Below are positions 7,901-43,745 of a stretch of DNA of 44,878 bases, piece after piece. The notes beneath the pieces are model-generated. The model saw only the letters and a list, made by a program, of their open reading frames with translations. It had not been told where the DNA came from and searched no databases. The position numbers and the translations under genes are program-made. Each line of letters opens with the position of its first letter. Within the stretch, counting starts at the first letter, position 1. Origin of the DNA: a virus; IMG/VR virus record IMGVR_UViG_3300017971_000101, positions 1 to 44,878 of that record. One strand, written 5' to 3'.

Positions 7901-9682
7901 AACGGATCCCTCGTACTGCTTGACCTTCGCCTCGTCAACAATGACCTTTCCGCGTTTTTTATCCAGGCCCGCCAGCTCTTTCTCATAAAACTCAAGCTCG
8001 GACCGCATATCCCGCAGATCCTCCAGATCTTGCTTGCGATCGGCCGCCTGCTTTTTCTTAATCGAGGGCGCGGACACTTTTACCTTTAATGGTATTTTTT
8101 CCGCAACGAGAAAATCCTGAAATGCCTTGCGATCTTGCATTATTCCGGCATTGATCGCCCGCTCGATCATCGCCTCGGTCCACCCCATCCTGGATCCCAA
8201 CCTGCGGACCAGGCGCTCCTCGGCAAACCGCATCGCCAGCTGGGGCTCGCTGACATCGATCTTACCCACGAAATCATTTTCAAATACTGTCTTGACCTCG
8301 TGGTTTCTTATGTGGGGGATCAGCGCCGTATCAACGGCATCACGGCGCTGCTCGGCAGTAAACCCCCGGCCGCCGTTGTCGGCCCGGTGCATCGCCTCTT
8401 TCATATCTACCGTGACGGCCGCCTCCAGGAGGATGTCGTCGCCTAATCCGTGCTTAACTGACTCCGGGTGCTTAACCAACAGGGAGTAATTGTCCTTGAT
8501 CCCTGGGTTTTTACTAAACATTTCCTTCCGCAGGTCCGGTGTCATTCTCGACCAGATCTTGCCCTGGACCTCGCCGAGAGCGTGACCCAGGAGCCAATCC
8601 GTGGCAAACTGCTGGTGATCCCAGCGCTCTTGCTGCCCGGTCAGGATCCGATATCCTTGAGCAGCTGCGGACCAGAGGAAGTCGCCGGCAAACCTGGCGG
8701 CCCAGCTGATCGGAGAGTTAATAACGGAGAGGGAATACCCGGCAAAAAAACTTTCCATCCCCGGCAGCAGGCCCGTGCGCCATTCCTTTTCCGTCATTTG
8801 GTCCTCGGCCATATACTTGCGGACCTTTTCGTTTACCTTGTCCCTGGCCAGGGTGAGCAGCCCCATATGGATCTGATTGGCCCCGACCTGGGAGATCTCC
8901 ATCAGTTTCCGACCCTTGATCATCCCGCGCCTGGCCCTGGATGCTACCCGGAAAGCCTCTCCCAGCTTGGAGATCTTCGCGGCATGGTAGGGATAATACC
9001 CCATGGCATTGAGCAGGCGGTACGCGCCCTTGGATCGGCGCATCACATTGGCTAATTTCGCGGGGGTGCCGAGAAATCCCGTCGCGGCGGCAAGGGCCAT
9101 AAAATTACCGACCTCTCCCAGGACCGCCCCGGTGCCATTAGCTATGGGATTGTATTGGCGATGCAGCTGCCCGTAAATGGGGTGCTCGCCCTTATGAAAA
9201 CCAAAGGTGAAATGATCGAGAAAAGAGTCTGCAAAAGCCTGAGCGCCTAAACCAGCGTTCCTGACTTCTATTTTTTTATAATCTTCCGGGACCTTCGCCA
9301 GCCGGTCTTTTTCCTTCTTGTGCCAGAAATCTCTCCAGCGCTTTTCCAGCTGTCTGATGCGGGTCTGGGGAACGTGGAGGGGGTTGTAAGACAGATCGGT
9401 CCAGGACTCACCCCATGCAGCCTCCTCCAGGGCCTCTGGCGCGTTAAACTCGGCCTCTACGACCTCACCCTTAGCCCACTCGTTAAAAAGGTCTAATTTG
9501 CGCTTTTTGAGCGCTTTTTCTTCTTCTTCGTTTTGCTGACGGGCCCACTCCTCAAAAGGCAATTCCTTTTTGTATTCCAGCGAGGGAATGGGTTGGGCAG
9601 AACTCGTGAAGTAATCGGCTCCGGGGAGAGGTTCTATCTCTCGGCCGGCCGCCTGTTTCATTTCTTCTTCAAATGTTGCCAT
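1985..9682 (-). CDS. Giant internal virion / DNA-ejection-type protein, 2565 aa
   Basis: One frame covers 17% of the genome. It starts with a charged, disordered-looking N-terminus. Hydrophobic, alanine-rich stretches follow near residues 180-210 and 307-344, then a long charged coiled coil near 540-700 and a second near 1880-1930. The C-terminal third has hydrophobic segments near 2100 (TLKVITLYKPTIMM) and 2295 (LNFFFIYPTYRV). Position and size match the large ejection proteins of T7-like phages (gp16) and the giant 'polyvalent'-type proteins of other phages, which enter the cell with the DNA. I see no transglycosylase, polymerase or protease motif. The stop overlaps the upstream alternative start of the lysis gene. 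Role inferred from context. Confidence 0.75.
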   Translation of the reverse strand: MATFEEEMKQAAGREIEPLPGADYFTSSAQPIPSLEYKKELPFEEWARQQNEEEEKALKKRKLDLFNEWAKGEVVEAEFNAPEALEEAAWGESWTDLSYNPLHVPQTRIRQLEKRWRDFWHKKEKDRLAKVPEDYKKIEVRNAGLGAQAFADSFLDHFTFGFHKGEHPIYGQLHRQYNPIANGTGAVLGEVGNFMALAAATGFLGTPAKLANVMRRSKGAYRLLNAMGYYPYHAAKISKLGEAFRVASRARRGMIKGRKLMEISQVGANQIHMGLLTLARDKVNEKVRKYMAEDQMTEKEWRTGLLPGMESFFAGYSLSVINSPISWAARFAGDFLWSAAAQGYRILTGQQERWDHQQFATDWLLGHALGEVQGKIWSRMTPDLRKEMFSKNPGIKDNYSLLVKHPESVKHGLGDDILLEAAVTVDMKEAMHRADNGGRGFTAEQRRDAVDTALIPHIRNHEVKTVFENDFVGKIDVSEPQLAMRFAEERLVRRLGSRMGWTEAMIERAINAGIMQDRKAFQDFLVAEKIPLKVKVSAPSIKKKQAADRKQDLEDLRDMRSELEFYEKELAGLDKKRGKVIVDEAKVKQYEGSVKGFQDFITRHEKLIEENNLQIEKLEKMPQDEKTLASEGEKNYLIQRQEHHKRQIGKYRREIKDLNAVIKKEKKGRVDDSVIDRQKNEYLQEIANVVKTAKERFGMDEADFRNAKKKPPVKFKKATREGAGINIKEFIDEMSRAAKTFTGTYKGAQAKDHARILKLMDQLEKFFIHKDEYIKGVSEKEVAEVYRSQATKDELLKARGLEREIRTNLGKYQDYIEKNLKRQIARAGKLAKYTPYDDMQGYLGLELAFLNMASYVKYVQKGKGINHILDTAILNVVGHIQTANQRYVLEKKLDKGESFNKKELEAWDQMRPLERAADLEKLHYAKLREKEPVITEAIRDDLFDYEPGSVTTLPALERRKDAVLRKKTERHRRDWGQAERLSQTELAQMLVVAKENPTYWMNVALRFLSKYRHFTNLDFHRGLLWRLGVQDLSAKQIENKINHIGRRITDAANKAAEAYPKMKKEMDPTDVMILYNTLRAERGKLNELTGMFKEYDLPSVARATYDNGAYVLSLKEAYDEMGRQYGKEIADIFLQKAANLVAKHVVDFNKTAGQGEIHIRNPEEEDNTKMIFISSGVSKKDFDEAILDLHNRLGGRYEGDRANEHRRFVINIHKPDGSIQSISKFKNVSTAYTLNPQDLGGLAKAHNTINYLVDILNPDLAARFKDVLFDMSDSGIKARTKRILDVIGGSHRDFNSLVDFLNANPGRRVRAQRALYEMVLDLKMIDPQLPAVVESELWNNIEMVEKSEGNRGAEETRASIRNQGIDQYMSVEEGVNTYFHGETRNMANLDGDLSGIHNYARVNAEESKQQFVDRFYNNAKANDAENRPPLEGIRKFGKGVHQFFKEKFTLWEDRKNVQHLQKSITRAAAARERLTDVDSTRLIEEVYSDFVQTKIPGATMKERHLNFEVFQRLQPFIRETEFKGYFEDIEARQLKEDLIKRLATEEINWSGDPRIDVETLISNPKHLTGAEIFNIWKRSADDLVISKILVQKLGIKAKDLVDFMIRKDDVFYKTIDQLFTILGEEFGFYKNLDLFENLKKAQRKVLRGLVTKYFDHTGKKAAELDFGDFKSEKNGIPFLVNLFKQIKDPKIKIDAELTLKHYIDFTPEKLMYEHHRILAFPDGRKVFGSEINSKLRDAEAGRVKGPKQLSPIADELLGREIPTLYNLIEKGYKVELNSFQVEKSLITYLFSRLYNQHMADGFRKQFHNHLVEKLAPTTKIPIEYEGRVREWTWKELKDADFSDAKKYKLMHKFADEKEARLEAVVETLADMGGYFWKPVDAEISRAKRNKKHIANRIKELQAIEERPEAEIRRLKDKLQAESKKIRDMNYVNRVLSGYEFTKERQELINFFRESDDPNIPKMNADLQNQLKSDVVDRKRYWTEKIMEAITGGEQHMPFNWKTHESDHRAEHKVFNTEAYKRARVGADRQPLIAEEIRRAQALAPNLPGWDGLYFDRVAVKNFKQYLFRDDLSQKLTGYEFLNKTLGLIGRVNSTLKVITLYKPTIMMANDIVQMTIGTPWGLAAKGAKNWKFAVKAYQERFTTRAGNEYAEFYWLMNKYDLFNHSVGVESIIHDATRAWYKVMGEDQFLGLKHYISSVFRKRHPDMDAETALGKAGNFVKENLGRISRGYKGYQELAWSIDEVMRITMAKTMFDKLIKVYPNDREHAAFLAADYTNLHMVQYSRVPSFTRMILNFFFIYPTYRVGTGRMYKEMFKNFGRGVKRIAGGTPDQMYMVSDNKWEQALFEMGPLLRALALRGAIKGLLVSMLGYGYEDPWDAFTNYRAHKLAETQFGEQYRYLALSTPLFELEKYITRPFALTLRNNISASMRWIWAVKTNTNPVTGKPLWTSPNRAEATKQLAWEFFRMNFPFGSDISNWADEDVSLAVKIFNTGGLGYVYDIENPNKMIKDFYAALDKTKTIGELRAAQRTFHTNMRRAYHRTFGKKFKTLEETIEEQRRVNDQQPR

Positions 9683-9685
9683 ATT

Positions 9686-11377
9686 TTACCTGCGTTTTTT
9701 GGCCTCCTCATCGGCCTCCTTTATCTTTCTGCTTAAATCTTTTTTCCAGGCTTTTTTCACAGAGGGAAAATGCTGCTGGTATTTCACACCCAGGGTGCCC
9801 TCGTCGCCGATGATCGCCTCCTCAATGCCCTGTTTGATGTAGTCGCTGTTCCAGCCCCCAAACCTGGTGTCTTTTTTATTCTTGAGCCGGGGATCGTCTG
9901 TAATATACCCCTGGGCCCTGGCATAAAGGACCAGGCCCCAAAACCGCTCGGGATCGCTCTCGGGATTGTCCAGGACACTTCTGATCGCAAGCCTGACATT
10001 ACTCTTGCCATAGCTGGCCGGAGGTGGAATAAGCGCCCGAAAGTTTTTATTGTCAGAAAACTTTTTAGCGATCTCGCCCTTGATGTCGGCGCTGTCAGGA
10101 TCCCAATCGTAGATGTTTCCGATCTTGGCCCCGCGGTGCTCTCTCCTGAGAATACGGATATATTTGTCAATGATCGGCTCCATATAATCCATAGCATTTT
10201 CGGTACTTTCTTTCAGGAGGCCCTGCCCTTTCATCCTGGCAAGCATAACAGTTTTCATCATTTCCTGAGCGGTCCGCACACCCGTTTCTCCCGTGGACCA
10301 ATTCTGTGGATTGGTGCCAAAAGACCCCATAGTGGTCTGGGCCAGGGGTTCCGCGATCAAATCATTGAGTTTTTCCGGGTTCTCCATCTCCTCAGACATT
10401 CTGATTAAAAGCAGCATTTTCCTGGCCAGGGACTCGGCATTACTCTTGGAGTCCTTATTGATTTTATTTTTCTGGTAAATGTATTTGTTTGCCACATCTC
10501 CCCAGGCTTTTTTTATGACCCTGGCATCGACCTTCGCTTTCCTGGATTGAGGCAGCGCCCTCATATGCGAGGCAGCTGCGGGATTTACCGCGTTCTGGAT
10601 CACAAACTTTTCATAATTAGCCATCGCCTTTTCTGGGGTGGGGATCGTCGCCGGACGTTTAAGCTCGGTTTCTACCCCGCCCAGGGCCTTGGCCTTTTCC
10701 TTTGCCTCGTCTGCCTTGACCTTGCGCTGGTGCTCTAGCCATCGCAAATAATCATCAAAAGGAAGATCCCCCAAACCAGGGACCTTAACCGTTTTTCCCG
10801 GCTTGACCCCTTTGGCCGCGAGCTTTTGCCTGGTAAAAAATACTTCATCGAGTTTCTTTTCCCGGACCTGCTGCTGCTGCCAGATCGCGGCCAGGCCGCT
10901 GTTGGGCCCCGCGATCGAATTAATATCGCGCTGGAGCTGGCGCAGGCGCTTGGCAGGGGTCATTAACACATCTTTTTTGGTATGAAAATCAACGTATTTG
11001 GTCTTATTTGTGTAAAATCCCTCCGGTTTAGTGGCTTTCTGGTGCATTAATTCCCTGGCCTGGTCCACTTTCTGGAGCAAATACGACTCCTGGGCCTCTT
11101 TAAAATAGGGATTTACCTCCTTATTGCCCTGGGTGCCGATAAACTCCTTGCCATAAACCTCTTTTACCAGGTGGTTACGGGCATTACTCAGCTGAAACTC
11201 GTTGCGCCTTTTCGTTAGAGATTGCGCAATCCCGCCGCCGATCGCCCCGGCCAGCTGGCCGAGCTGCGCCGTGCGCTGCCTGCGCTCGGCCCGTTTCCGC
11301 ATCATCTCATTTTCCCGTCGGATCTGGCCCCTTTCCAGGGTGCCTATAATTGATTGCGCTAAACCTTCAAATGCCAC
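9686..11377 (-). CDS. Internal virion protein (ejection protein C-like), 563 aa
   Basis: A long, highly charged, mostly helical protein with a basic N-terminal region (RRENEMMRKRAERRQR) followed by a glycine/alanine segment (LAGAIGGGIAQSL) that could insert into a membrane. The start is GTG 11377, with AAGGAGG eight bases upstream. It lies between two other helical virion proteins and is separated from the giant protein by three bases. That order is like T7 gp14-gp15-gp16, which form the ejection tube through the cell envelope. I do not recognise a sequence family, so the assignment rests on position, size and composition. Confidence 0.6.
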   Translation of the reverse strand: MAFEGLAQSIIGTLERGQIRRENEMMRKRAERRQRTAQLGQLAGAIGGGIAQSLTKRRNEFQLSNARNHLVKEVYGKEFIGTQGNKEVNPYFKEAQESYLLQKVDQARELMHQKATKPEGFYTNKTKYVDFHTKKDVLMTPAKRLRQLQRDINSIAGPNSGLAAIWQQQQVREKKLDEVFFTRQKLAAKGVKPGKTVKVPGLGDLPFDDYLRWLEHQRKVKADEAKEKAKALGGVETELKRPATIPTPEKAMANYEKFVIQNAVNPAAASHMRALPQSRKAKVDARVIKKAWGDVANKYIYQKNKINKDSKSNAESLARKMLLLIRMSEEMENPEKLNDLIAEPLAQTTMGSFGTNPQNWSTGETGVRTAQEMMKTVMLARMKGQGLLKESTENAMDYMEPIIDKYIRILRREHRGAKIGNIYDWDPDSADIKGEIAKKFSDNKNFRALIPPPASYGKSNVRLAIRSVLDNPESDPERFWGLVLYARAQGYITDDPRLKNKKDTRFGGWNSDYIKQGIEEAIIGDEGTLGVKYQQHFPSVKKAWKKDLSRKIKEADEEAKKRR

Positions 11378-11388
11378 GTTGCACCTCC

Positions 11389-13086
11389 TTATTCACCGTA
11401 TTTAAAACCTTCGGATTCAGCTGTGGTGGCGGCCGTGCTCTGTTTTTGTTTAAGCTGCTTTTTGGCTTTCTTGTATTTATCCATAGAGCCATATCCATAA
11501 GCCCCGTAAGCGCCCCACTTTTTCTCCAGGGCCCGCCAACGAGGTCCACCGCGCCGAATGGTCACATTTTTATAATAAGCATCGCCGGTGCCGTCGAAGT
11601 CGTACAGCTTGCCGGCCTGCCATGCCGATTTCCTGTCTGCCCAGCCGCTGCGCTTAAACCGTTTTGCCCTGGTTTTCGCCACCGCGCCGCCGATCGCGTC
11701 ACCGAACAAGGGGATTAAGAAGGTCCCGGTCATTTGCCCAGCTGTTTCTGCGCTCCCCATTCTGTCCTGGATCCGCTGCTGCTGTGCCGCTGATGATAGC
11801 TCCGGCCGCAAAGCCGCCACGGTCGGATCCGCTGTCCCGCCGCCAGCTCCCACACCGCCGATCGCCCCAGCTCCAGCGCCGCCGCCGATCGCGCCGGCAG
11901 CGGTTTCTATTTTCAGGATCTCAGAGGTCAGGCTGTCCATCGCCCGCAGATCCGCATTAAGAGCATTGTCCCAACGCGCCTGAGCACCGAAGGTGATCGT
12001 CTGCTTTCTGGAAAGAACGTCGCTCGCCTGCTTGGTCTGCTGCTCATATTGCCATTGGCTCAATGCCCGGAGGTTTTCCAGCTTGGTCTTGTTCATATCC
12101 ACGGTGAGTTTGCGTTTTTCTTGCATGGTCTGCATCGCCAGGGTCCCTTTCTGCATTTCAATCTTCTGGATCCCCTGGGACCAGGCCGCATCCATCTGCG
12201 CCATCTTGTCCACCAGGGCCAGCTTGCGATCGTCGATCTCACCCAGCCTGAACTTGGAGAGCTCGTTGATTTTCAGTTTCTGTTTTTCCGTGCCCTGGTC
12301 CAGCTCCTTGATCGCGGCGATCATAAAACCCGAAAAACCCAGGCCGCGCCTGGCGGCCTGGCCACGCAGGGTCCGCTTATTGTCCCTGGCTTTCTTTTCC
12401 AGCTCTTTCAGCTGTTCGTCCGTGCGCTTATACTCTTGGTCCACGGCTTTATCGGCACGGGACATCTGGCGCTGGATCGCCCGGCGGCCATATCCGGCAT
12501 TTTCTTTCATATGCCTGGTGGCCATACGGAGCTCGGACAGGCCCTGCTCAAACTTGTCATTTATTTCCAGGACCCCGGCCGCCGTCTGTTCCTTGATCTG
12601 CCGCTTTATCGAGGTGGATTGGGAATCAAAAAGATCGTCCAGGTTCTTCGCCATCGTGGACTCATATGTTTCCAGGTCCTCGAGGGCACTAATATAGAGA
12701 TTTCCCTTTTTATCGACATCAGCCACGTTCTCGCCCGCTGCATAGGCGATCGCGTTCCTGTACTCATTCTGCATCTTGGTCGCCTTATCCTCATAAAAAG
12801 CATAGCGCTTTTTAAGGACACCAACAGCGCGGAGGAGGGCTTGGATCTGCTGCTGCTTGGCAACGTCGCCGACATATTTATCGGCCATAGAATACAGGCG
12901 ATCAGATACCCCGCCCAGGTACGACACACCTGCATTGATAATAGTGCTCCACGGCATCTCAAAACCGCCCCCTCCCCCACCACCTTTGGCAGAGCCTGAG
13001 GCGGTGGAGGGACGGGAGGTTGTGGCCGTAGTAGAGCCGCCCGTGCTTGCGGGGCCCGGTGTTCCGTAATACCCTACGTCGGCCAT
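11389..13086 (-). CDS. Internal virion protein (ejection protein B-like), 565 aa
   Basis: The N-terminus is Ser/Thr/Gly-rich and ends in a run of glycines. A long helical region with heptad-like charged repeats (about residues 70-360) follows, then a glycine/alanine hinge (about 395-420). After that comes a short apolar stretch (TGTFLIPLFGDAIGGAVA) and a basic, tyrosine-rich C-terminus. This composition is typical of phage internal core proteins that unfold, pass through the tail and meet the membrane. It is the first of three consecutive ejection-type genes. The ATG at 13086 follows AAGAAGGG. Assignment is contextual. Confidence 0.6.
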   Translation of the reverse strand: MADVGYYGTPGPASTGGSTTATTSRPSTASGSAKGGGGGGGFEMPWSTIINAGVSYLGGVSDRLYSMADKYVGDVAKQQQIQALLRAVGVLKKRYAFYEDKATKMQNEYRNAIAYAAGENVADVDKKGNLYISALEDLETYESTMAKNLDDLFDSQSTSIKRQIKEQTAAGVLEINDKFEQGLSELRMATRHMKENAGYGRRAIQRQMSRADKAVDQEYKRTDEQLKELEKKARDNKRTLRGQAARRGLGFSGFMIAAIKELDQGTEKQKLKINELSKFRLGEIDDRKLALVDKMAQMDAAWSQGIQKIEMQKGTLAMQTMQEKRKLTVDMNKTKLENLRALSQWQYEQQTKQASDVLSRKQTITFGAQARWDNALNADLRAMDSLTSEILKIETAAGAIGGGAGAGAIGGVGAGGGTADPTVAALRPELSSAAQQQRIQDRMGSAETAGQMTGTFLIPLFGDAIGGAVAKTRAKRFKRSGWADRKSAWQAGKLYDFDGTGDAYYKNVTIRRGGPRWRALEKKWGAYGAYGYGSMDKYKKAKKQLKQKQSTAATTAESEGFKYGE

Positions 13087-28109: not shown

Positions 28110-28653
28110 CTTCTTCCTGGGCCGGCTGCTCGATCACAACCGCGTTTTTTACACCCTGGCCGGCATTGGTATTTGGCATAATAATATTAATCGGGGTCTG
28201 GCCCTGGCCGCCCTTATCTGGTTTAAGAAATGCGGATCCGGCCTGCGCCACCAGCTTGGAAACGCGCCGGATCTCAGCGATCACCGCCAGCTTGACACCG
28301 ATCGGCTTGGGGACCGCCACCTCCTTGCCGGTTTTTTTATCGACCACGATCTCGTCCTTGAGCATATCTTCCAGCCGCTGGAGCTGGATCAGCATCTTGT
28401 CGTGGAGGATCTGCTGGGCCTGCCGGGGATCCGCTTTCTTGTTTAGGGTGAAGGTCACATATTTTATAGCGTTACAGATGCTGTGGTGGGACCGCTGGTA
28501 TTTCTTCATCAGCTGCTGGTACGTCAAGTGGTTCTCGACGTAATCGGTATAGATCTCGAAATACTTGGCCTGGATCGCCTTGTTCTTCGGCCGGTAAACT
28601 TCTGAGTGCTTGTACCGGCTTATGTCTGTGACCTCTCCCCGGTTTGTGCCCAT
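28099..28653 (-). CDS. Small terminase subunit candidate
   Basis: A 184-residue protein. The N-terminal part (YFEIYTDYVENHLTYQQLMK, then RSHHSICNAIKYV) is a helix-turn-helix-type DNA-binding domain of the kind used to recognise packaging sites. The middle is helical, and the C-terminus is flexible (GQGQTPINIIMPNTN). It overlaps the large terminase start and is coupled to the DHH gene before it by a TAATG junction. Assigned by domain type and position. Confidence 0.7.
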   Translation of the reverse strand: MGTNRGEVTDISRYKHSEVYRPKNKAIQAKYFEIYTDYVENHLTYQQLMKKYQRSHHSICNAIKYVTFTLNKKADPRQAQQILHDKMLIQLQRLEDMLKDEIVVDKKTGKEVAVPKPIGVKLAVIAEIRRVSKLVAQAGSAFLKPDKGGQGQTPINIIMPNTNAGQGVKNAVVIEQPAQEEDVS

Positions 28654-29516
28654 TAGGTGTCGCGGTACCTCTTAATCTCCAGACCCTTGAAGGGGTAGTC
28701 TGGGGTGACGAATCCGGCCGCATTGACGTGGCCGCCGCCGCCCATCTCCACCGCGATTTTGCTTACGTCGATGTCAGGGTTTTCCGTATAAAGGCTAAAG
28801 GTCCAGCGCTCGCCGTCGAAGAAGAACGGGGCCATAATGTCATAGCTGTCTTTGGGCACACTGTCAAAGACCTGGCTGCCGAGCTTGCCGCAGGCGCTGA
28901 TCACCCGGTAGCCCCAATGGTTGACGTAAAAGGCCCAAGACTTCATCCGGCCGTAGTCCTCTTTGTCGTTGTAGGTCTTAATGGCCGCGCCCTTGCGGAT
29001 CACTTCCTCGGACAGCTTGTGGGACTCATTATAATCCAGCCACCCTTTCCAGGTATCGGCCCAGGGCTGGGTGTTGTAGCACCGGCAGCCCAGCTGAAAC
29101 ATACGGGTGTCGTCGCCGTACTTGAACTCCCAGATGTCGTAATCATCCAGCAATTCCAGGACCCTTGGCGCGGGCTCGTTGGGGAAGTAGTAGTGCCAGG
29201 CCGCCATACAACCGGATGGCTTGTCGTCGTACCGCAGCCCGGCAATTTTGTCAGAGAGGTGACGGTGGAAATCGATGGCGGTTTTATGGTGGTCGATCCA
29301 TGTCACATTCTCGGTGATTTTAAGCAGCCGATCAAACTCTCCCTCGAGGAGAGAGAAATCGACAAATATCACTTCTTCCCCTGGCTTGATCTCGTCCCAG
29401 GGAAAACGGTGATTATAATTAATCGCGGTGAACTTAATCCACTTGTCCGGGAACTTCCGCTTGACGATCGCGGCCGCGCACTTCCCGTCCATATCGATAT
29501 GATAAAAGCATCTCAT
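28653..29516 (-). CDS. DHH/DHHA1-family phosphoesterase
   Basis: A 287-residue enzyme with the full motif set. HIDMDGKC is at residues 6-13, VDFSL near 49, IDHHKT near 74 (the DHH signature) and GGGGHVNAAG near 258 (the substrate-binding DHHA1 signature). Family members cleave phosphodiesters: short RNAs, pAp, or cyclic dinucleotides such as c-di-AMP. It is too short and motif-limited for full RecJ. In phages, such enzymes could scavenge nucleotides or destroy signalling nucleotides used by host defence. The exact substrate cannot be read from sequence. It sits just before the terminase genes. Confidence 0.8.
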   Translation of the reverse strand: MRCFYHIDMDGKCAAAIVKRKFPDKWIKFTAINYNHRFPWDEIKPGEEVIFVDFSLLEGEFDRLLKITENVTWIDHHKTAIDFHRHLSDKIAGLRYDDKPSGCMAAWHYYFPNEPAPRVLELLDDYDIWEFKYGDDTRMFQLGCRCYNTQPWADTWKGWLDYNESHKLSEEVIRKGAAIKTYNDKEDYGRMKSWAFYVNHWGYRVISACGKLGSQVFDSVPKDSYDIMAPFFFDGERWTFSLYTENPDIDVSKIAVEMGGGGHVNAAGFVTPDYPFKGLEIKRYRDT

Positions 29517-32018: not shown

Positions 32019-33242
32019 ATGAAAAATGTATTTAGAGTATTTGACAAGATGAGCAAGCGCAAGAGTAATTTTACGATCCTTTCGACGGTAATGGTATCGG
32101 GCGAGGTCGCGACAATGACAGACAATGACACGGTTGTAAAATACCGCAATTCTTTACTTTCGGGCCTGGCGGCCGGATGTTACCAGGTTAGGGATATTAA
32201 AAACTACCTGGAAAGGGGAATAGAGCCCAAAGCGGCCGACATTACCCCAATTACTGACTACCCGGAAGTAGGGGAAATGGATCTAATCAAAGGCGACGAC
32301 ATTGATTTTAACTTATGGCATGAGCATCTGGAAATACTCAAGGCCGTGGGCCCGTCGAAATATAGCCTTGCGGGAGTCTATGTCGAGGCCGATTATATTA
32401 TAGCCATTGACGGCCGCCGCCTAATTAAATCGCCGTCGGGCCTGAAATTGGGGGACGGCGAGGCCGCAACGATTGACGGCGCGGGCCTGGAAATAGTCAA
32501 ATTGGGGTTTACGTCGTGCCGTGTCTATGTCGATATCGAGGGCAAGAAAACGACATTTTCTCACGACAATTTGGCTATATCTGTTAGGCATTTACAGGGT
32601 AAATACCCTAACTGGAAAATGTTTATACCCATATCATTTGATAGTGAAATAACCGTTGACAGTGACAGGTTGCGGGCCATACTAAGGGTGAATAAAGAGT
32701 ATTTAGACAAGGACACGAACAAGGTTATTTTTACGCAGGACAAGGGGCAATTAATTGTCGAGGTACCGGGCGGGCCCGTGTTTAAAACCCCTGTTAAAAA
32801 CAACGTCGGCAAGGCCGCACAATTCGCCCTAAACCATAGCCTATTAAGCGCATATCTCAAGCGGGCACAAGACTATATTATGTTTACCTTCAACGACCCC
32901 ATACAGCCCTTCAAGATCGTACGGAAGGAAAATGCGGACACGACATTTATTTTAATGCCGATGAAAGTATGTGACGAAAAAGAGCAGGCCCCGGTCTATG
33001 ACGTTGACCAGGTAAAGGAAATGCTCGACAGTGTGGGCCCTGTCAAGGTCAAGCGGGCCCAGGTCAAGCCGTCCCGTCCCGCCGCCGCTGCGCCTGCTAG
33101 CTGGGAAAGGGAAAAAGCGGAAATGCTGAAATTGATCCAGGCACAGCAGCAGCAGATCGAGGAAATGCAGGCGGCCGTAAACAGGGCCGAGAGGTCAGAG
33201 CTTGCGGCGCTGCGCCTGGTAAAAAAAGCGGGCCGGATATAA
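32019..33242 (+). CDS. DnaN-like DNA polymerase sliding clamp with C-terminal coiled coil
   Basis: A 407-residue protein with the order and landmarks of the three-domain bacterial beta clamp. A YSLAGVYVEADY strand precedes IAIDGRRLI, where clamps read ATDGHRL. HLQGKYPNWKMFIP matches the clamp's '..fPdy..iiP'. LRAILRVN and the final FILMPMKV match the 'yvlMPm' end. After the clamp there is about 70 residues of extra Lys/Arg/Ala-rich sequence and a coiled coil (MLKLIQAQQQQIEEMQAAVN). It would ring DNA and hold a polymerase. It is the first gene of the plus arm, with TAGGAG before its ATG. Sequence is divergent, so family membership is by motif. Confidence 0.7.
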   Translation: MKNVFRVFDKMSKRKSNFTILSTVMVSGEVATMTDNDTVVKYRNSLLSGLAAGCYQVRDIKNYLERGIEPKAADITPITDYPEVGEMDLIKGDDIDFNLWHEHLEILKAVGPSKYSLAGVYVEADYIIAIDGRRLIKSPSGLKLGDGEAATIDGAGLEIVKLGFTSCRVYVDIEGKKTTFSHDNLAISVRHLQGKYPNWKMFIPISFDSEITVDSDRLRAILRVNKEYLDKDTNKVIFTQDKGQLIVEVPGGPVFKTPVKNNVGKAAQFALNHSLLSAYLKRAQDYIMFTFNDPIQPFKIVRKENADTTFILMPMKVCDEKEQAPVYDVDQVKEMLDSVGPVKVKRAQVKPSRPAAAAPASWEREKAEMLKLIQAQQQQIEEMQAAVNRAERSELAALRLVKKAGRI

Positions 33243-33289: not shown

Positions 33290-34180
33290 ATGACCACAAC
33301 AACAACGACCAAAACAACCACGACACGGACCAAAGAGGACAAGCGCAAATGGTCCATTGACAAGAAAAAGGCCCTGGGCGAGGCCCTGGACAGTTTTTTA
33401 GAGGCACAATTTACTGATCCCGACAAGATCAAAAACCTGGTAGATCATTACCGGATCGCCAACCTCTACGACTACTCCATGACTAACACGGCCCTGATTA
33501 TGGCGCAGGGCGGCACCCTGGCGCAGAGTTATAAGAAATGGCAAAAGCTGGGCCGCTATGTCAAGAAGGGAGAGCGGGGACAGATTTATATATACGTCCC
33601 GCTGATGGTATCGGACAAGCGCAAGAAGGAGATGCGGGCAGAGATGGCCGAAACATCGGATCCGGCCAAGCGCCTGGAGCTCGGCAGCAAGATACAGAGA
33701 AACAGGCCCTTTTTTGTACTCAAGCCTGTTTTTGATGTGGCCCAGACCGACGGGGAGCCGCTCAAATACGAGCATGACAATGCCGACCTGCTTAATATCC
33801 CCTATGCCGATGTAAAGGACAAGCTCAAGGGCCTGGTCAAGCAGCAGATCATCGAGGCATTTTCCGGCACGAGCCGGGGCAGCTGCGGAGCCGACACCAT
33901 CACCGTCAATCCCTCGAGCAACAACACCGACAAGGTAAAGACCCTGATCCACGAGGTAGCGCATGCCATCCTTCACCACCGGGGCGAGGAGTTCAATACC
34001 ACGAGCAGGGGCGGCCGCGAGGTCGAGGCCGAGAGTGTGGCGCACCTGGTCATGTCATACCTGGGGCACCCGCTGGAATTGTCGGCCGGGTACGTTCAAA
34101 ACTGGCAGCAGCAGGGCGATGATTACGACAAGATCAAGATCCTGACCACTGCGGAAAAAATAATAAAGGCCCTCAAATGA
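33290..34180 (+). CDS. ArdC-like antirestriction protein with zinc metallopeptidase domain
   Basis: A 296-residue protein. After a threonine-rich tail (about residues 1-14) comes the ArdC/DUF1738-type N-terminal domain, known to bind single-stranded DNA, with NTALIMAQGG then the KKWQKLGRYVKKGERG segment. The C-terminal half has a zincin motif HEVAH (residues 221-225) with a downstream Glu-rich helix (REVEAESVAHLV). ArdC proteins protect incoming DNA from restriction. Here the gene follows the clamp and may protect or process phage DNA at the start of infection. The stop overlaps the next frame by ATGA, although that gene's preferred start lies 21 bases further on. Confidence 0.75.
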   Translation: MTTTTTTKTTTTRTKEDKRKWSIDKKKALGEALDSFLEAQFTDPDKIKNLVDHYRIANLYDYSMTNTALIMAQGGTLAQSYKKWQKLGRYVKKGERGQIYIYVPLMVSDKRKKEMRAEMAETSDPAKRLELGSKIQRNRPFFVLKPVFDVAQTDGEPLKYEHDNADLLNIPYADVKDKLKGLVKQQIIEAFSGTSRGSCGADTITVNPSSNNTDKVKTLIHEVAHAILHHRGEEFNTTSRGGREVEAESVAHLVMSYLGHPLELSAGYVQNWQQQGDDYDKIKILTTAEKIIKALK

Positions 34181-36236: not shown

Positions 36237-36451
36237 TGCACCACCACAGCAAATCAAAACCCAAGATGGCGGTAATACGCTGCTTAAAGTGTGACGATCA
36301 GATCCTGGTCCACAACTGCGGGCCCGCGCTGGAAAAGGCGCAGCAATTTATCCGGCGGCCCTGCGGTGAGAATGATTGCGGCGGCAGGCGGGTCCTGGCC
36401 ACCCCCTCCCACCTGCTCAACTGGAACCGGACCGACCTGGATAGAGGCTAA
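36236..36451 (+). CDS. Small cysteine-rich protein, 71 aa
   Basis: Begins MHHHSKSKPKMAVIRCLKCD. It has CxxC (RCLKCD) and a second cluster CGENDCGG, so one zinc site is likely. CGGAGG precedes the ATG, and the TAATG overlaps at both ends place it tightly between the RadC-like and helicase genes. Family not recognised. Confidence 0.65.
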   Translation: MHHHSKSKPKMAVIRCLKCDDQILVHNCGPALEKAQQFIRRPCGENDCGGRRVLATPSHLLNWNRTDLDRG

Positions 36452-38148
36452 TGCTAGTCGGCGATCGCATTTTACTGACCGTGCCCTGGCTGCAAAAAGA
36501 TCTGGCCAGGTCTATCCAGGGCCGGCAGTGGCTAAAGGAACGCAAAAAGTGGTCCTTCCCGGTCGAGCAGTTCCGGCACCTGCTCGAGGCTTTCCCTCAG
36601 ATGCGGGACGAGATCAACCTGGATGCGGCGACATATTATGACCAACCGGACAAGGGGGTGAGTATGGAAAAGGTGGCCGAGCTGGATCTGCGGGATCCCG
36701 AGTTTGATATTGACAAAGAGATCCAGGGGGTGGAGATCCCGCGCGGGGTGGACCTGTCTGTCACCCTGGGCGACGGCAGCAAGAGCCCGCTGTTTGAGCA
36801 CCAGATCAAGATCCTCAAGCTCTGCCTGAAATATTGGCAGTTCGCGGTCCTCTGCGAAATGGGGACGGGCAAGACGATCGCTCTGATCATGGTGATCAAA
36901 TGCCTGCGGGCCCTGGGGGTCCAGGTCCGGGCCCTGATTGTCTGCCCCAAGTCGGTGCGGCACAGCTGGACATCAGACCTTGACAAGTGCGGAGTTTCGG
37001 GATATAATATAGTCAACGGGTCAAAAAATCAACGGCTGTCCCTATTGGCGGGGTCAGCTGAAAGGGGTGAAATTGCCATCATCAACTACGACAGCTTGCT
37101 ACCGACGGGAGAGGACGGGCCGTGGGGGATGTTTAATCTCGTCATACTCGATGAGTCCAGCCGGATCAAGAATCCGTCCGCTAAACGGACCAAGTTCTGC
37201 CTGCGGGCATTTAAGGCTGCACAGTATAGGTACATACTATCGGGAACACCAATCACTCAGAACCCGGCTGATATATATTGCCAATACCATTTTCTCGATC
37301 GCGCTTTTCTGGGTTTCAATAGCTTTTATTCCTTTCGCAATACTTACCTGGTTATGGGAGGTTTCCAGGGCTACCAGGTCATTGGAGTCAGGAACCAAGA
37401 GGAGCTTAGAAAAAAGATTGGGCGGCACTCGATCCAATTAAAAAAGGAGGAATGTCTGGACCTGCCGGAAAAAGTATTTACGACCAGGTGGCTTGATATG
37501 CCTAAGGAGCTCAAGCTGCAATACGAGCAGATGAAAAAGGATTGTATCGTCGAGCTCAATGGCGAGGTCAAGCTGACCGCCAATATCATTTTAACTAAAG
37601 TTATGCGCCTACAGCAGATCACCTCCGGTGCCCTGCTCAAGTATAAAGACAATGCCAAACTACAGGCCCTGCGGGAGATCATAGAGGACCTGGTGCGGGA
37701 CAGCGGCAAGCAGCTGGTGATCTGGTGCCGGTTTAAAAAAAGCATCGCCCTGATCCAGGCCCTGGTAGAAGAAATGGGCATAACGTATGGTATTCTGGAC
37801 GGCGATACCAAAAACCGTGACGAGGTTATAGATGATTTCCAAAGCGGAAAAACAAAAATCTTCATTGGCCAGGTACAGGCGGGGGGTCTTGGGATTAACC
37901 TCTGGGCTGCAAGTACCACTGTCTATTACGAGCGCCCGTTTTCCCTCGAGGAAAATAAGCAGAGCGAGGACCGGATCCACCGCATCGGGCAGCGAAACAC
38001 CTGCACCTACATCGACCTATGCTACAAGGGGACGGTGGACACAGATGTTCTTGGGGCCATACAAAAAAAGCAAGATATGGCCACCTTCCTGGTGGACTCC
38101 TTCCTAAAGGGTGACTACGAGTTGAGGCAGCGGTATGAAAAAACTTAA
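36451..38148 (+). CDS. SNF2/SF2-type helicase
   Basis: A 565-residue ATPase. Motif I is CEMGTGKT (about residue 137) and motif II is DESS (about 233, in place of DEAH). Motif III is SGTP near 265, and motif VI is RIHRIGQ near 508, preceded by the family's QAGGLGINL block. The set is typical of SNF2-like DNA translocases used in replication, recombination or remodelling. Phage relatives often help replication restart. It starts at a TAATG junction. No nuclease domain is fused. Confidence 0.85.
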   Translation: MLVGDRILLTVPWLQKDLARSIQGRQWLKERKKWSFPVEQFRHLLEAFPQMRDEINLDAATYYDQPDKGVSMEKVAELDLRDPEFDIDKEIQGVEIPRGVDLSVTLGDGSKSPLFEHQIKILKLCLKYWQFAVLCEMGTGKTIALIMVIKCLRALGVQVRALIVCPKSVRHSWTSDLDKCGVSGYNIVNGSKNQRLSLLAGSAERGEIAIINYDSLLPTGEDGPWGMFNLVILDESSRIKNPSAKRTKFCLRAFKAAQYRYILSGTPITQNPADIYCQYHFLDRAFLGFNSFYSFRNTYLVMGGFQGYQVIGVRNQEELRKKIGRHSIQLKKEECLDLPEKVFTTRWLDMPKELKLQYEQMKKDCIVELNGEVKLTANIILTKVMRLQQITSGALLKYKDNAKLQALREIIEDLVRDSGKQLVIWCRFKKSIALIQALVEEMGITYGILDGDTKNRDEVIDDFQSGKTKIFIGQVQAGGLGINLWAASTTVYYERPFSLEENKQSEDRIHRIGQRNTCTYIDLCYKGTVDTDVLGAIQKKQDMATFLVDSFLKGDYELRQRYEKT

Positions 38149-39312: not shown

Positions 39313-39678
39313 TTGAGTGAAAAAGCAAAGACCAAAGCGGAGGCTATGAAAGCCTTTAAGAAACAGCAGGCCGATTGCAACAAAACGATGAAGGAAAAAA
39401 AGCTGGTCGCTAGTGACAAGAAGTTCATCCACATTGAGGCCAGGTTCTGGAAAGACAAGGACGGTGACGAGCGGGCCCAAACCGTAGAGGCTGTCCTTTC
39501 CGCTGGCCAGGCCGATGTTGTAAAGATCGTCAGTGAGCTCCTTAGAAAAGTGGGGATCTCAAGTGCCGACGAGTACAAGGCTGCCCTGACCGCTACCAAG
39601 TTTATGGATCTAATGCAGGGCAAGGTCCGTGTCGGAGAGGGGTGCAGCCCCCTGGACATTTTGAAGGAGGTCCTCTAA
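39313..39678 (+). CDS. Hypothetical protein, 121 aa
   Basis: TTG 39313 follows AGGAGG. A basic N-terminus (KTKAEAMKAFKKQQAD) is followed by a compact alpha/beta domain (KFIHIEARFWKDKDGDE, then VKIVSELLRKVGISS). Ends at a TAATG junction with the next gene. Not recognised. Confidence 0.6.
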   Translation: MSEKAKTKAEAMKAFKKQQADCNKTMKEKKLVASDKKFIHIEARFWKDKDGDERAQTVEAVLSAGQADVVKIVSELLRKVGISSADEYKAALTATKFMDLMQGKVRVGEGCSPLDILKEVL

Positions 39679-40178
39679 TGCGGCCGGCCAATGAAGTGTT
39701 AAAGGACCTGGACGAGGCCCTGGTAACTGAGCAGTTCCACAAGGCCCTGCTCTCCGAGCTGGGCAAGCGGATCTGGCAGCTCCAGCAAGAGGCTTACGAG
39801 GCGATGGAGGACCAGGACACCAGCGAGCTTGTCTATGACGGCATTAAGTACCAGACCAAAGAGGAGCTGGACTTCAAGCTTACCGAGGAGGCCCAGAAGA
39901 TCGCCCGCACCTGGGACGACAATCCCGAGTTCAGGGAGTTCGTCGAGCGCGAGGATCCCGGCCTGGGTAAAACCAAGTGGTCGGTGCATGCCGGCCAGCG
40001 CAAAGCCTGGCTCAAGAAAAGGCTGGAGGAGGGCCTGCCCCTCCCCCCCTGCGCCGAGCAGTTCTATACCAACATCATCAAGTACACCAAGACACACATC
40101 GCGGCGAAGATGAAAGAGAAACACACCCAGGACATTGAAAAGTTTAAGGAGAGGATCGGCCTGCGTGAAAAAAATTGA
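39678..40178 (+). CDS. Hypothetical protein, 166 aa
   Basis: ATG 39678 has GAAGGAGG upstream and the TAATG overlap; the longer frame from 39642 would lie inside the previous gene. The protein is charged and helical, with KWSVHAGQRKAWLKK in the middle and a Pro-Cys loop (LPLPPCAEQF). The end overlaps the VRR-NUC gene. Function unknown; its neighbours suggest DNA work. Confidence 0.6.
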   Translation: MRPANEVLKDLDEALVTEQFHKALLSELGKRIWQLQQEAYEAMEDQDTSELVYDGIKYQTKEELDFKLTEEAQKIARTWDDNPEFREFVEREDPGLGKTKWSVHAGQRKAWLKKRLEEGLPLPPCAEQFYTNIIKYTKTHIAAKMKEKHTQDIEKFKERIGLREKN

Positions 40179-40530
40179 AACATCCGAGGCAGCTGTCAAG
40201 GCCAGCATCCGTAACTGGCTGGCCAAGTACCGCTGCTTTCGGTTCGCTATGTCCGGTAACTTTATGGGCGGGATGCCCGACACCATTGTTACGATCCAGC
40301 ACAGTGCGGCTGCCCTTCCCCCCCTGGGTAGTGGGGGTAGAGCGGCCATTCTCAGTACCCATATCGTTATCGGCATAGAGTGTAAGCGCCCAGGTAAAGA
40401 TGCCACGGACAAACAGAAAGCCAAACACGACGAGCTGCGGCGACAGGGCTGGCTGGTCGTAGTGGTCCACAGCCTCGACGAGCTGAAAAAGTTTCTGGCC
40501 GATCACAACATTGACCTGGGTAATGGGTAG
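40165..40530 (+). CDS. VRR-NUC domain nuclease (PD-(D/E)XK superfamily)
   Basis: A 121-residue protein from GTG 40165 (GGAGAGG upstream; TTG 40135 is also possible). The motifs are GMPDTIV near residue 37, ECKRP near 72 and a Q in TDKQKAKHDELRRQGW near 84. These are the D, E-x-K and Q residues of VRR-NUC, a small nuclease family that resolves branched DNA and is found alone in phages. The gene's last bases and stop codon are the 5' end of the tRNA. It may act with the SNF2 helicase and MCM-like helicase. Confidence 0.8.
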   Translation: MKKIETSEAAVKASIRNWLAKYRCFRFAMSGNFMGGMPDTIVTIQHSAAALPPLGSGGRAAILSTHIVIGIECKRPGKDATDKQKAKHDELRRQGWLVVVVHSLDELKKFLADHNIDLGNG

Positions 40531-40606
40531 GTATGCAAGCGGTTCAAAGCAGCCGGTCTGTAAAACCGGTCCGTAAGGTTCGGTGGTTCAAATCCACCCC
40601 TGCCCA
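40525..40606 (+). tRNA. tRNA-Tyr (GUA anticodon)
   Basis: A full cloverleaf can be drawn. The acceptor is GGGTAGG/CCTGCCC with one G-U pair, the D stem TGC/GCA, and the anticodon stem CCGGT/ACCGG with loop CTGTAAA. A 12-base variable arm, typical of bacterial tRNA-Tyr, and T stem GGTGG/CCACC with loop TTCAAAT complete it. The discriminator base is A, and CCA is not encoded. The tRNA starts six bases before the end of the VRR-NUC coding region. Confidence 0.92.
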
Positions 40607-40650
40607 AATGTCGGTGTATTCCGGCACAAATAAATTAAGCGAGGAATAAT

Positions 40651-41502
40651 ATGAGCGAAAAAAAACCAGTTGACTTAGTGCCCCAGGCACAAGACCAGGT
40701 ACCGGATTTTCTGCGTACCTCACCAGGAGAAACAGGAACAGAGCATATGGACGGGGAGGACACCATCGTCCCCCGACTAAAGATCTGTCAGGCCATGACC
40801 CGCAAAGCCGTTAAAGAGGACATAGCCGATCTGGATCTAGGCGACCTGTATCACACCACCAAGAAAGAAAACTACGGCAAATCCCTGGACCTTTACATCC
40901 TGTACCATTGGCGCAGCGAGGTCTGGTTTAGTGACGGCCGGACCCTGATCGGCACCAGGTTCAAAAACCCCAGGGACAAAAAGCAGTGGATCACCTACGG
41001 ATCCGAGATCGACGAGATCCTGGAGGACCTGAAAAAACCGGCGGCCGAGCGCAAGTACACCGGCAAGCAGGCAGGTACCGACAACCACAACTATATGTGT
41101 GTCCGGGCCAGCTCCATCGACAACGGCGAGCTGCCCGAGATCTTCATTTACTCTGCCGGATCCGCTGCATGCAAACCCGCCAAGCAGCTGAACAGCTATC
41201 TCAAAGACAAGGCCAGGCACGGCTGGCCGATCTACTCCCACCGCGTAACACTCAAGACCGTTGAGCAATCCTTTGATGCCGGCGATGCCTGGATGCCGTC
41301 CTTTGCCTGGGGTAAAACCTGCGAGGACAAGGACCAGGCCGCTACCCTCAAGCGGCTATACGACGAGGCCCAGAGGCTGATGGCCCTCGAGGACACCCAC
41401 GTTAAAGGCGCTGACGATTCCGAGGGGACCGGTTCCCAACCTTCACCTGGCCAGAAAGATCCCGGCCCTGGCACAACGGGTGATGGTACGATCCCCTTTT
41501 AA
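40651..41502 (+). CDS. Single-stranded DNA-binding-like protein with IPF tip
   Basis: A 283-residue protein. The first part reads VPRLKICQAMTRKAVKEDIAD and has beta-rich core strands (SLDLYILYHWRSEVWF). From about residue 250 it becomes a Gly/Pro/Ser-rich flexible tail ending GDGTIPF, close to the C-terminal IPF tip of bacterial SSB that docks DNA-repair partners. The tail is less acidic than in E. coli SSB. It lies right before the MCM-like helicase, fitting a replisome role. The DNA-binding fold is not clearly recognisable, so the call rests on the tail and context. Confidence 0.55.
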   Translation: MSEKKPVDLVPQAQDQVPDFLRTSPGETGTEHMDGEDTIVPRLKICQAMTRKAVKEDIADLDLGDLYHTTKKENYGKSLDLYILYHWRSEVWFSDGRTLIGTRFKNPRDKKQWITYGSEIDEILEDLKKPAAERKYTGKQAGTDNHNYMCVRASSIDNGELPEIFIYSAGSAACKPAKQLNSYLKDKARHGWPIYSHRVTLKTVEQSFDAGDAWMPSFAWGKTCEDKDQAATLKRLYDEAQRLMALEDTHVKGADDSEGTGSQPSPGQKDPGPGTTGDGTIPF

Positions 41503-41564: not shown

Positions 41565-41582
41565 CCCCATTCCAGGAGTCTT

Positions 41583-43745
41583 ATGAAGAAGTTTACACCA
41601 GAGCAATTAGCTAAAGAGATCCCAGAAAAAATGAAGTTCCTCATGCAAAATGAGGCGATGCAAGAGTTCCTGGTAATGAAGAAAGGGATCCCCTGGGAAG
41701 ATGCGATCGAGAATATGTTTGGCTGGGATCCCGCCAGCCAGGAGTTCTGGGTCCCGATCAAGAACGAGATCGGCCGCCCGATCGACATCGAAACCTTCCC
41801 CCTCACCGACGAGAGCGATTGGCTTGAGGCGGCATTACAGTGGTATAAGAACGTAGATTTATCCGAGAGCATTAAGAGCGTATATTACAACAAAAACATT
41901 TCCTTTTCCGGTATTGCCATCGGGAAAGAGCTCTCACCCTATACCATCCCGCACGAGATCAAGGCCACTTGCCAGGAAGGAAACCCCGACAGAAAAAAAT
42001 GTAAGCAGTGTATTTTAAATAACAACCAGGAAGTCACCTGGAACCTCAAGATATCGGACGAGAAAGACAAGGAGCTCCTGGTGTCTATGATCGGCTGCTC
42101 CAACCAGCAGGTCGTGGGCCTGGTCCGCAAGTATATGGGGATCCCCACCTACAACACCTGCCGGCAGGTCGAGCTCGATCTGAACAACCGCATTGACGTA
42201 GAGGAGATAAGGCTGACCAGCGAGGTCGATCACGACCGTATTGACACCGAGTACGTGGTCCATAAATGCCTGGTGTTTGGTCCGCAGATCCAGACCAATG
42301 CCAGGTACCAATGCTGGGGCACGACCTACAACGACCCACGATCTCAACACGCAATACACATAATTAAGAAGGTCCATTCCAAGCGGGACAGCCTCTCCCA
42401 ATGGAAACTTGACAAGGAGGCCAGGGAAAAGCTCGAGGTCTTTTCCGTCAAGGATCCTCAGGACGAGGACCAGGTGCGGGAAAAGCTGCACCATATCCAG
42501 AGCGACCTCGCAGCCAACGTCACCAAAATGTATAAGCGGGAGAGCGTGATCCAGGCCACCGACTTTGTATATTGCACCCCCCTCCACTTCAAGTTTATGG
42601 GTCAGAAGGTCCTCAAGGGCTGGGGGGAATGTGCCATAATTGGGGACACGCGGACGGGTAAAACCGAAACCGTCAAAAATCTTGTCCATCACTATCGAGC
42701 TGGCGAGTTCGTTACCAGCGGTGAGAATACCACTTTGGCTGGACTACTAGGTGGGGTGCAGCAAACCCACAACGGCAGATGGAGTCTTACCTGGGGTAAG
42801 ATGCCGATGAATGATCGCCGGGCCGTAATCATAGACGAGGCCGATACCCTGGCCGAGCAGGGCATTATGGGGCATTTGTCCGGTGTCCGCTCGTCCGGGG
42901 TGGCCGAGCTGGTGAAGATCCAGACCCAGCGCACGATGGCCAGGACCAGGCTGCTCTTTATCGCCAACCCGCAGAAACCCCAGCTCTCTGTATATAACCA
43001 CGGGGTTGACGTAATACCCGAGATCTTCGGCAAGGCCCAGGACATCAGCCGCCTCGACTTCGCCATCTTTTGCAGTAAGGACGACGTGAGCGATCGCGAC
43101 ATCAATGCCATTAGAGAGGCCACCGTCCCCCATTTATACACCAGCGAGCTCTGTCACGAGCGCATTATGTATGCCTGGACCAGGGGGATCGACGACGCGA
43201 TCTGGGCCGACGGATCTGAAAAACTAATTTTGGATCTGGCCGTGACCTTCGGCGAAAAGTATATCCCCGACATACCGCTAGTGCTCGGTGCCGAGTTCAG
43301 GATCAAGCTGGCCAAGATGTCCTACTCCATAGCCCTCCAGACCTTCTCCGTCAACGAGAACGCAAGCAAGGTCGTGATCTACCCCAGCCACGTCAAGGTG
43401 GCGGCAAAGTGGCTCAGAGAGCAGTATGACAGCCCCGTGTCCGGGTACTACGATTTCTCGATGCAGAAGAAAACCGGCAATAAGATCCGCAACGAGATAG
43501 AGCTTGACACCCTTATGGCTGAGGACGTGGAGTTGATAAACTCTCTATTATCTGTCGATAAGTTGCAGCTGGGCGATGCCGAGGACCTGTTTGAAACGGA
43601 CCGGACCGAGGCCAGGAAGGTGATCAGCAAGCTGCGGAAGTGCTCGGCCATTATCAAGCACCGGTATTACTATGTAAAAACACCCCATTTTATAAGGTGG
43701 CTTAAAAAAAAACGATTAGATCTGAATAAACAGATCCCCTTTTAG
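41583..43745 (+). CDS. MCM-like AAA+ replicative helicase
   Basis: A 720-residue protein. The AAA+ core has Walker A IGDTRTGKTE (about residue 354), then TSGENTTLAGLLG, a Walker B IIDEAD (about 415), a pre-sensor beta hairpin, a sensor 1 ANP (about 460) and ISRLD near 488 (MCMs have SRFD, the arginine finger). The order and spacing match the MCM family. N-terminal cysteines (C...CKQC near 129-142) suggest a zinc site. The very end is KQIPF. It is the likely replicative helicase. No primase is fused, unlike phage DnaB-type helicase-primases. Confidence 0.7.
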   Translation: MKKFTPEQLAKEIPEKMKFLMQNEAMQEFLVMKKGIPWEDAIENMFGWDPASQEFWVPIKNEIGRPIDIETFPLTDESDWLEAALQWYKNVDLSESIKSVYYNKNISFSGIAIGKELSPYTIPHEIKATCQEGNPDRKKCKQCILNNNQEVTWNLKISDEKDKELLVSMIGCSNQQVVGLVRKYMGIPTYNTCRQVELDLNNRIDVEEIRLTSEVDHDRIDTEYVVHKCLVFGPQIQTNARYQCWGTTYNDPRSQHAIHIIKKVHSKRDSLSQWKLDKEAREKLEVFSVKDPQDEDQVREKLHHIQSDLAANVTKMYKRESVIQATDFVYCTPLHFKFMGQKVLKGWGECAIIGDTRTGKTETVKNLVHHYRAGEFVTSGENTTLAGLLGGVQQTHNGRWSLTWGKMPMNDRRAVIIDEADTLAEQGIMGHLSGVRSSGVAELVKIQTQRTMARTRLLFIANPQKPQLSVYNHGVDVIPEIFGKAQDISRLDFAIFCSKDDVSDRDINAIREATVPHLYTSELCHERIMYAWTRGIDDAIWADGSEKLILDLAVTFGEKYIPDIPLVLGAEFRIKLAKMSYSIALQTFSVNENASKVVIYPSHVKVAAKWLREQYDSPVSGYYDFSMQKKTGNKIRNEIELDTLMAEDVELINSLLSVDKLQLGDAEDLFETDRTEARKVISKLRKCSAIIKHRYYYVKTPHFIRWLKKKRLDLNKQIPF

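Follow-up and report, generated by a model that had tools for sequence, protein, structure and literature searches.

A stand-alone MCM-like gene in a podovirus-type genome

A gene for an MCM-like AAA+ helicase that stands alone in a small phage genome raises the question of what this protein is, where it came from and which enzymes it would work with. The DNA analysed (hereafter the window) is the whole IMG/VR virus record IMGVR_UViG_3300017971_000101 of 44,878 nucleotides, and the genome is very probably complete because a 123-bp direct repeat was found at its ends. The minus-strand arm encodes an SU10-type portal and capsid, a terminase and an SLT transglycosylase, which together indicate a podovirus-type phage of a bacterium. 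The match of the SU10-type portal and capsid profiles agrees with the original prediction of a podovirus-type genome, and the SLT transglycosylase points to a bacterial host. The window ORFs that were scanned included no integrase. The plus-strand arm encodes clamp-like, ArdC-like, RadC, SNF2 helicase, VRR-NUC, Pam3 gp33-like and gp34-like and MCM proteins, and an MmcB-like protein is also encoded in the window. The features of this arm that are needed below are as follows:

32019..33242, plus strand: sliding-clamp-like protein (phrog_947, 3.7e-14)
36451..38148, plus strand: SNF2-family helicase (PF00176), conserved in sister phages
39642..40178, plus strand: Pam3 gp33-like protein (PF23984), conserved in sister phages
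40135..40530, plus strand: VRR-NUC endonuclease (PF08774), start codon uncertain
40651..41502, plus strand: Pam3 gp34-like protein (PF23977, 63.4 bits), C-terminal tip GDGTIPF
41574..41578, plus strand: AGGAG ribosome-binding site before the ATG of the MCM-like gene, read from the sequence
41583..43745, plus strand: MCM-like AAA+ helicase gene, 720 aa, ATG start, stand-alone

The GC content of the MCM gene (0.527) compared with that of the genome (0.515) gave no signal of a recent transfer of this gene, and such a transfer was set aside. A tRNA-Tyr (GTA) of 84 nt, a bacterial-type length, lies at 40524-40607 between the VRR-NUC and gp34 genes. A DHH phosphoesterase gene (28653-29516) adjoins the terminase genes, and no homologue of it was found in the sister contigs. 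The product of 33290-34180 has an ArdC-like N-terminal domain and a metallopeptidase domain and is possibly an anti-restriction protein.

The predicted product is a divergent MCM

Judged from its motifs and its model, the 720-aa ORF product is a divergent MCM-like AAA+ helicase. It matched the Pfam MCM profile PF00493 with 30.3 bits (cutoff 23.3, E = 2.8e-7), and an AlphaFold model built on 71 sequences had a mean pLDDT of 91.6 and a pTM of 0.82. The domains and motifs were located as follows:

41895..42380, plus strand: beta-rich N-terminal domain, residues 105-266 (DSSP on the model), a fold-level match to the MCM N-terminal region
42525..43097, plus strand: MCM P-loop AAA+ core, residues 315-505 (region of the PF00493 match)
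42642..42665, plus strand: Walker A GDTRTGKT, residues 354-361
42750..42794, plus strand: beta hairpin at the position of the MCM helix-2 insert, residues 390-404 (model strands 390-394 and 400-404)
42822..42839, plus strand: Walker B AVIIDE, residues 414-419 (D418 in 62/71 relatives)
42900..42938, plus strand: beta hairpin at the pre-sensor-1 position, residues 440-452 (model strands 440-444 and 448-452)
42963..42971, plus strand: sensor 1 ANP, residues 461-463
43047..43058, plus strand: SRLD arginine finger, residues 489-492
43299..43301, plus strand: R573, candidate sensor 2 by inferred role (R in 69/71)
43494..43730, plus strand: C-terminal helical domain with a small hairpin in the model, winged-helix-like by inferred type

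The motif order read earlier from the letters (Walker A, TSG, Walker B, hairpin, ANP and SRLD) was confirmed by these residue positions, with the TSG segment at residues 378-380. G354, K360, E419, N462 and R490 are identical in 71/71 aligned relatives. When the model was searched against the PDB, the best 50 matches listed were all MCM structures (best E = 1.1e-23) and most alignments spanned about 560-660 columns, the N-terminal domain included; the assignment to MCM rather than to another AAA+ clade is thus supported at the level of structure. The two hairpins were found at the sites expected for the helix-2 insert and pre-sensor-1 hairpin of an MCM, their placement being by position in the model (pLDDT 91.6) and not by residue-level superposition.

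Cellular MCMs of archaea and eukaryotes share the full-length fold with the window protein (TM about 0.4-0.6) but only about 15% identity, and the Pfam models of the MCM OB, lid and N-terminal domains (MCM_OB, MCM_lid and MCM_N) did not match the 720-aa protein. The AAA-lid PF17855 and winged-helix PF21120 profiles also found no match in it, and helical C-terminal domains were seen in its model. The N-terminal OB/zinc region is aligned by the fold search and has four conserved cysteines, C130, C140, C143 and C193 (in 70, 69, 70 and 70 of 71 relatives), yet MCM_OB does not match it. The canonical MCM cysteine pattern is two CxxC pairs, whereas the window protein has C-x9-C-x2-C-x49-C, and these four cysteines possibly form a zinc site.

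The nearest relatives are primase-helicase fusions

MCM had been considered sporadic in bacterial phages, which was not borne out: relatives of the window MCM are encoded at no fewer than 268 IMG/VR loci, and tblastn returned 50 cultured-phage records with ~30% identity, mostly annotated as primase or primase/helicase. Only three relatives were found in GTDB genomes. In most relatives, one ORF encodes the MCM part preceded by a CHC2 zinc ribbon and TOPRIM domain. PHROG 18685 (1028 positions), to which the DnaG-type fusions of Microbacterium phages Krampus and Sparcetus, Bacillus phage BSTP12 and Weizmannia phage Youna2 belong, matches residues 98-707 of the window protein at model positions 392-1011 (3e-73); this match and the MCM tree indicate common descent of the window MCM part with the fused DnaG-type primase-MCM proteins. 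These fusions are homologous to the window protein over the whole MCM part (28-31% identity), with the same motifs and cysteines; they differ in their length of about 940-1005 aa and in having CHC2 and/or TOPRIM in the chain, whereas the window protein has neither.

In a few relatives (vB_BboS-125 and a B. velezensis plasmid), an archaeo-eukaryotic primase takes the place of the DnaG-type one. Such BcMCM-type AEP-MCM fusions, found in a Bacillus cereus prophage, Bacillus phage vB_BboS-125 and B. velezensis plasmid p3, resemble the window protein in their related MCM part (24-28% identity) and their location on a mobile element of bacteria, but their primase module is the archaeo-eukaryotic PriS (PF01896), which is absent in the window. 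In the literature, AEP-MCM fusions of bacterial phages go back to 2005 (McGeoch and Bell, as cited in PMC4538821 and PMC5862659). For DnaG-type primase-MCM fusions or their loss, no description was found in the literature searched.

Haloarcula tailed virus 3 (HATV-3) and Haloferax tailed virus 1 also have a stand-alone MCM in a small tailed virus, and its AAA+ core aligns with that of the window protein. The similarity is seen in this core only (hhalign probability 96), however, the hosts are archaeal, and the viral MCM is canonical: the OB, lid and N-terminal Pfam models match the HATV-3 protein, with the winged helix near the cutoff. Acquisition of a canonical archaeal MCM was therefore rejected, since the haloviral similarity is limited to the core and the nearest relatives are phage fusions.

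The window MCM descends from a dismantled primase-helicase

The CHC2, TOPRIM and AEP profiles were all negative for the window MCM, in keeping with the earlier statement that it has no fused primase. This absence is, from comparison of the sequences, a secondary loss, because most relatives are primase-MCM fusions. In the window protein and its two nearest relatives, the proteins of the sister phages L013 (53% identity) and L014 (49%), no more than about 90 residues precede the MCM part, and two segments were distinguished in this short N-terminus:

41613..41804, plus strand: DnaG-type primase remnant, residues 11-74 (HMM of fused relatives)
41805..41858, plus strand: low-confidence junction, residues 75-92, the TOPRIM site in the alignment with fused relatives

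The remnant corresponds to the segment between CHC2 and TOPRIM of the fused relatives, which is the N-terminal subdomain of the RNA-polymerase domain in a DnaG-type primase. It scored 17.2 bits in the window protein, 20.5 in L013 and 30.7 in L014 at the same model positions, and the best of 3000 shuffles of each reached 4.0, 5.5 and 8.2 bits, respectively. The test had first been made with 8 sequences (10.1 bits against a best shuffle of 6.8) and was repeated with 64. When the primase model was run on the six frames of the window, its best match was this same segment and nothing besides it was significant. The pLDDT of the junction was 61-68 in blocks 71-90 and fell below 50 at residues 81-85.

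Two further sister proteins were informative. L015 (47% identity) has kept TOPRIM and lost CHC2, and L016 (38% identity) is without CHC2, TOPRIM and the remnant. In the MCM tree, the window protein and L013-L016 form one clade, with support of 99 for the window with L013, 99 on adding L014, 98 on adding L015 and 99 on adding L016, and L015 lies between L016 and the group with the remnant. By this placement, the primase losses are nested, and two or more losses of TOPRIM are probable in the clade. Both the remnant and L015 connect the window protein with the DnaG-type fusions. The alignments and the tree together indicate that the window MCM descends from a dismantled primase-helicase, in which the catalytic CHC2 and TOPRIM were lost and a remnant was kept, and this origin is what is new here. 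That the short N-terminus instead arose artefactually in assembly or sequencing, by in-frame deletion of CHC2-TOPRIM from an intact fusion gene, is hardly credible: the window is a single metagenomic assembly, but L013 and L014, which are independent contigs of other metagenomes, have the same truncation and the same remnant, and the ATG of the window gene has a good ribosome-binding site. A frameshift upstream of this ATG was also rejected, as the frame is open for only 33 codons further upstream and holds no primase motifs.

The series from fused proteins through TOPRIM only to remnant only shows how a primase-helicase gets dismantled. The bacterial-type DnaG primase module is the common partner of MCM here; the motor is conserved, whereas its primase part is open to exchange or loss.

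No primase or polymerase of the families searched is detectable

The search for replication partners used four primase and three polymerase profiles, and the absences found cover known families only. Neither the primase profiles (CHC2, TOPRIM, AEP and Prim-Pol) nor those of PolA, DnaE and PolB found a match in the window, in the L013 genome, which is complete (144-bp repeat), or in the L014 and L016 contigs. In the window, CHC2 (PF01807) is absent from the six frames; TOPRIM (PF13155) and its EGE and DxD motifs are absent by profile, motif table and six-frame HMM scan; and the AEP profiles PF01896 (PriS) and PF09250 did not match. A split primase elsewhere in the window genome was rejected, none being found in the six frames.

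The 4/4 primase-less sister contigs are also polymerase-less, and PolA or DnaE was found in 32/36 contigs of other relatives. The correlation gave a Fisher p of 0.0008, yet it represents one independent pair on the tree, in one clade, and is therefore not put forward as a statistical proof; two changes on the tree suffice to explain the polymerase absence. The four fused members without a polymerase may well belong with the primase-less clade, as this grouping was acceptable (p-AU 0.61). Because these fused lineages can be grouped there, the association of primase and polymerase may be one evolutionary event, and the polymerase may have been lost first.

The window holds its sliding-clamp-like gene without a detectable polymerase, and this gene is absent from the complete sister genome L013. 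A clamp as hallmark of polymerase-less phages was rejected, as only one fused relative besides the window was found to have it.

The host may supply primase and polymerase

As no recognisable primase or DNA polymerase was found, the phage probably borrows both from its bacterial host. We give a probability of roughly 60% to the reading in which the phage MCM unwinds and host primase and polymerase synthesise. As archaeal MCM and the phage enzyme BcMCM suggest by analogy, the window MCM would form a hexamer, translocate 3'->5' on single-stranded DNA and open the fork in phage replication; BcMCM is a primase-helicase with 3'->5' helicase activity (PMC4538821). The adjacent gp34-like protein would coat the single strands, its SSB-type IPF tip would recruit host replication enzymes, and host DnaG and host DNA polymerase would do priming and synthesis. 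The outcome would be a hybrid replisome, in which an archaeal/eukaryote-type helicase works with bacterial priming and synthesis.

The gp34-like gene is present in 34 loci, mostly directly upstream of MCM. Its product ends in IPF or LPF, as bacterial SSB does, in the window and in 7/30 other aligned relatives, and the gp34 of L013 is without this tip. Such an end also occurs in other proteins of the loci, several of which are DUF669 or SSB-like and occupy the same operon position. A fold search with gp34 gave no match with E below 0.001; the tail and the gene position suggest that the gp34-like family (PF23977) may consist of ssDNA-binding proteins of phages. QIPF is also the C-terminal end of the window MCM. 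An IPF end was noticed in 3/71 aligned MCM-like helicases (L029, L035 and the window protein), and in two of these an acidic run precedes it, as it does in bacterial SSB. A more specific form of the host-supplied reading, that the MCM ring replaces host DnaB at forks with host DnaG and polymerase, and that residues 11-74 and the IPF tips of gp34 and the helicase are docking points, is tentative, and we would sooner doubt it than rely on it.

The phage could also encode its own primase and/or polymerase of an unrecognised family, so that the MCM would have its partners from the phage itself in a self-sufficient genome. Several window ORFs have no family match, and unusual primases are indeed known from mobile elements, such as A-family polymerase-SSB pairs (PMC10061031); the four primase and three polymerase profile families were negative in two complete genomes, however, and the larger unmatched ORFs sit in the minus-strand structural arm, so that we regard such self-sufficiency as unlikely. 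It is still less probable that the MCM is a motor of recombination or repair, acting with the SNF2 helicase and VRR-NUC while priming comes from strand invasion or transcripts. The conservation of the SNF2, VRR-NUC and gp33/gp34-like genes beside MCM in sister phages would suit this role, as would RadC and the MmcB-like protein in the window, but no ring helicase of replicative type other than MCM was found, the fused relatives of this MCM clearly are primase-helicases, and the scanned window ORFs yielded neither a RecA-like gene nor an annealing protein. If the host does supply primase and polymerase, an archaeal/eukaryote-type 3'->5' helicase would drive a bacterial replisome, and the phage offers a testable case of an MCM ring having to work with enzymes of another replication system.

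Other arrangements of the MCM gene

A second set of stand-alone MCM-like proteins of about 620-640 aa was noticed in L075, L142, L143, L145, L146 and L155. No CHC2 or AEP primase was found in the tested contigs of this set, where PolA is present, and their operons appear, from translations judged by eye, to hold nuclease-, RecA- and SSB-like genes. As PolA is kept with the stand-alone MCMs of L075, L142, L143, L145 and L155, primase-free MCM has arisen more than once. In L062, a short overlap divides the gene in two (8957-10516 / 10507-11790), and L067 is similar, its second ORF being known from frame translation only. The split falls in both exactly at the boundary of the MCM N-terminal domain with the AAA+ motor, which would give one protein of primase and N-terminal domain and a separate motor protein.
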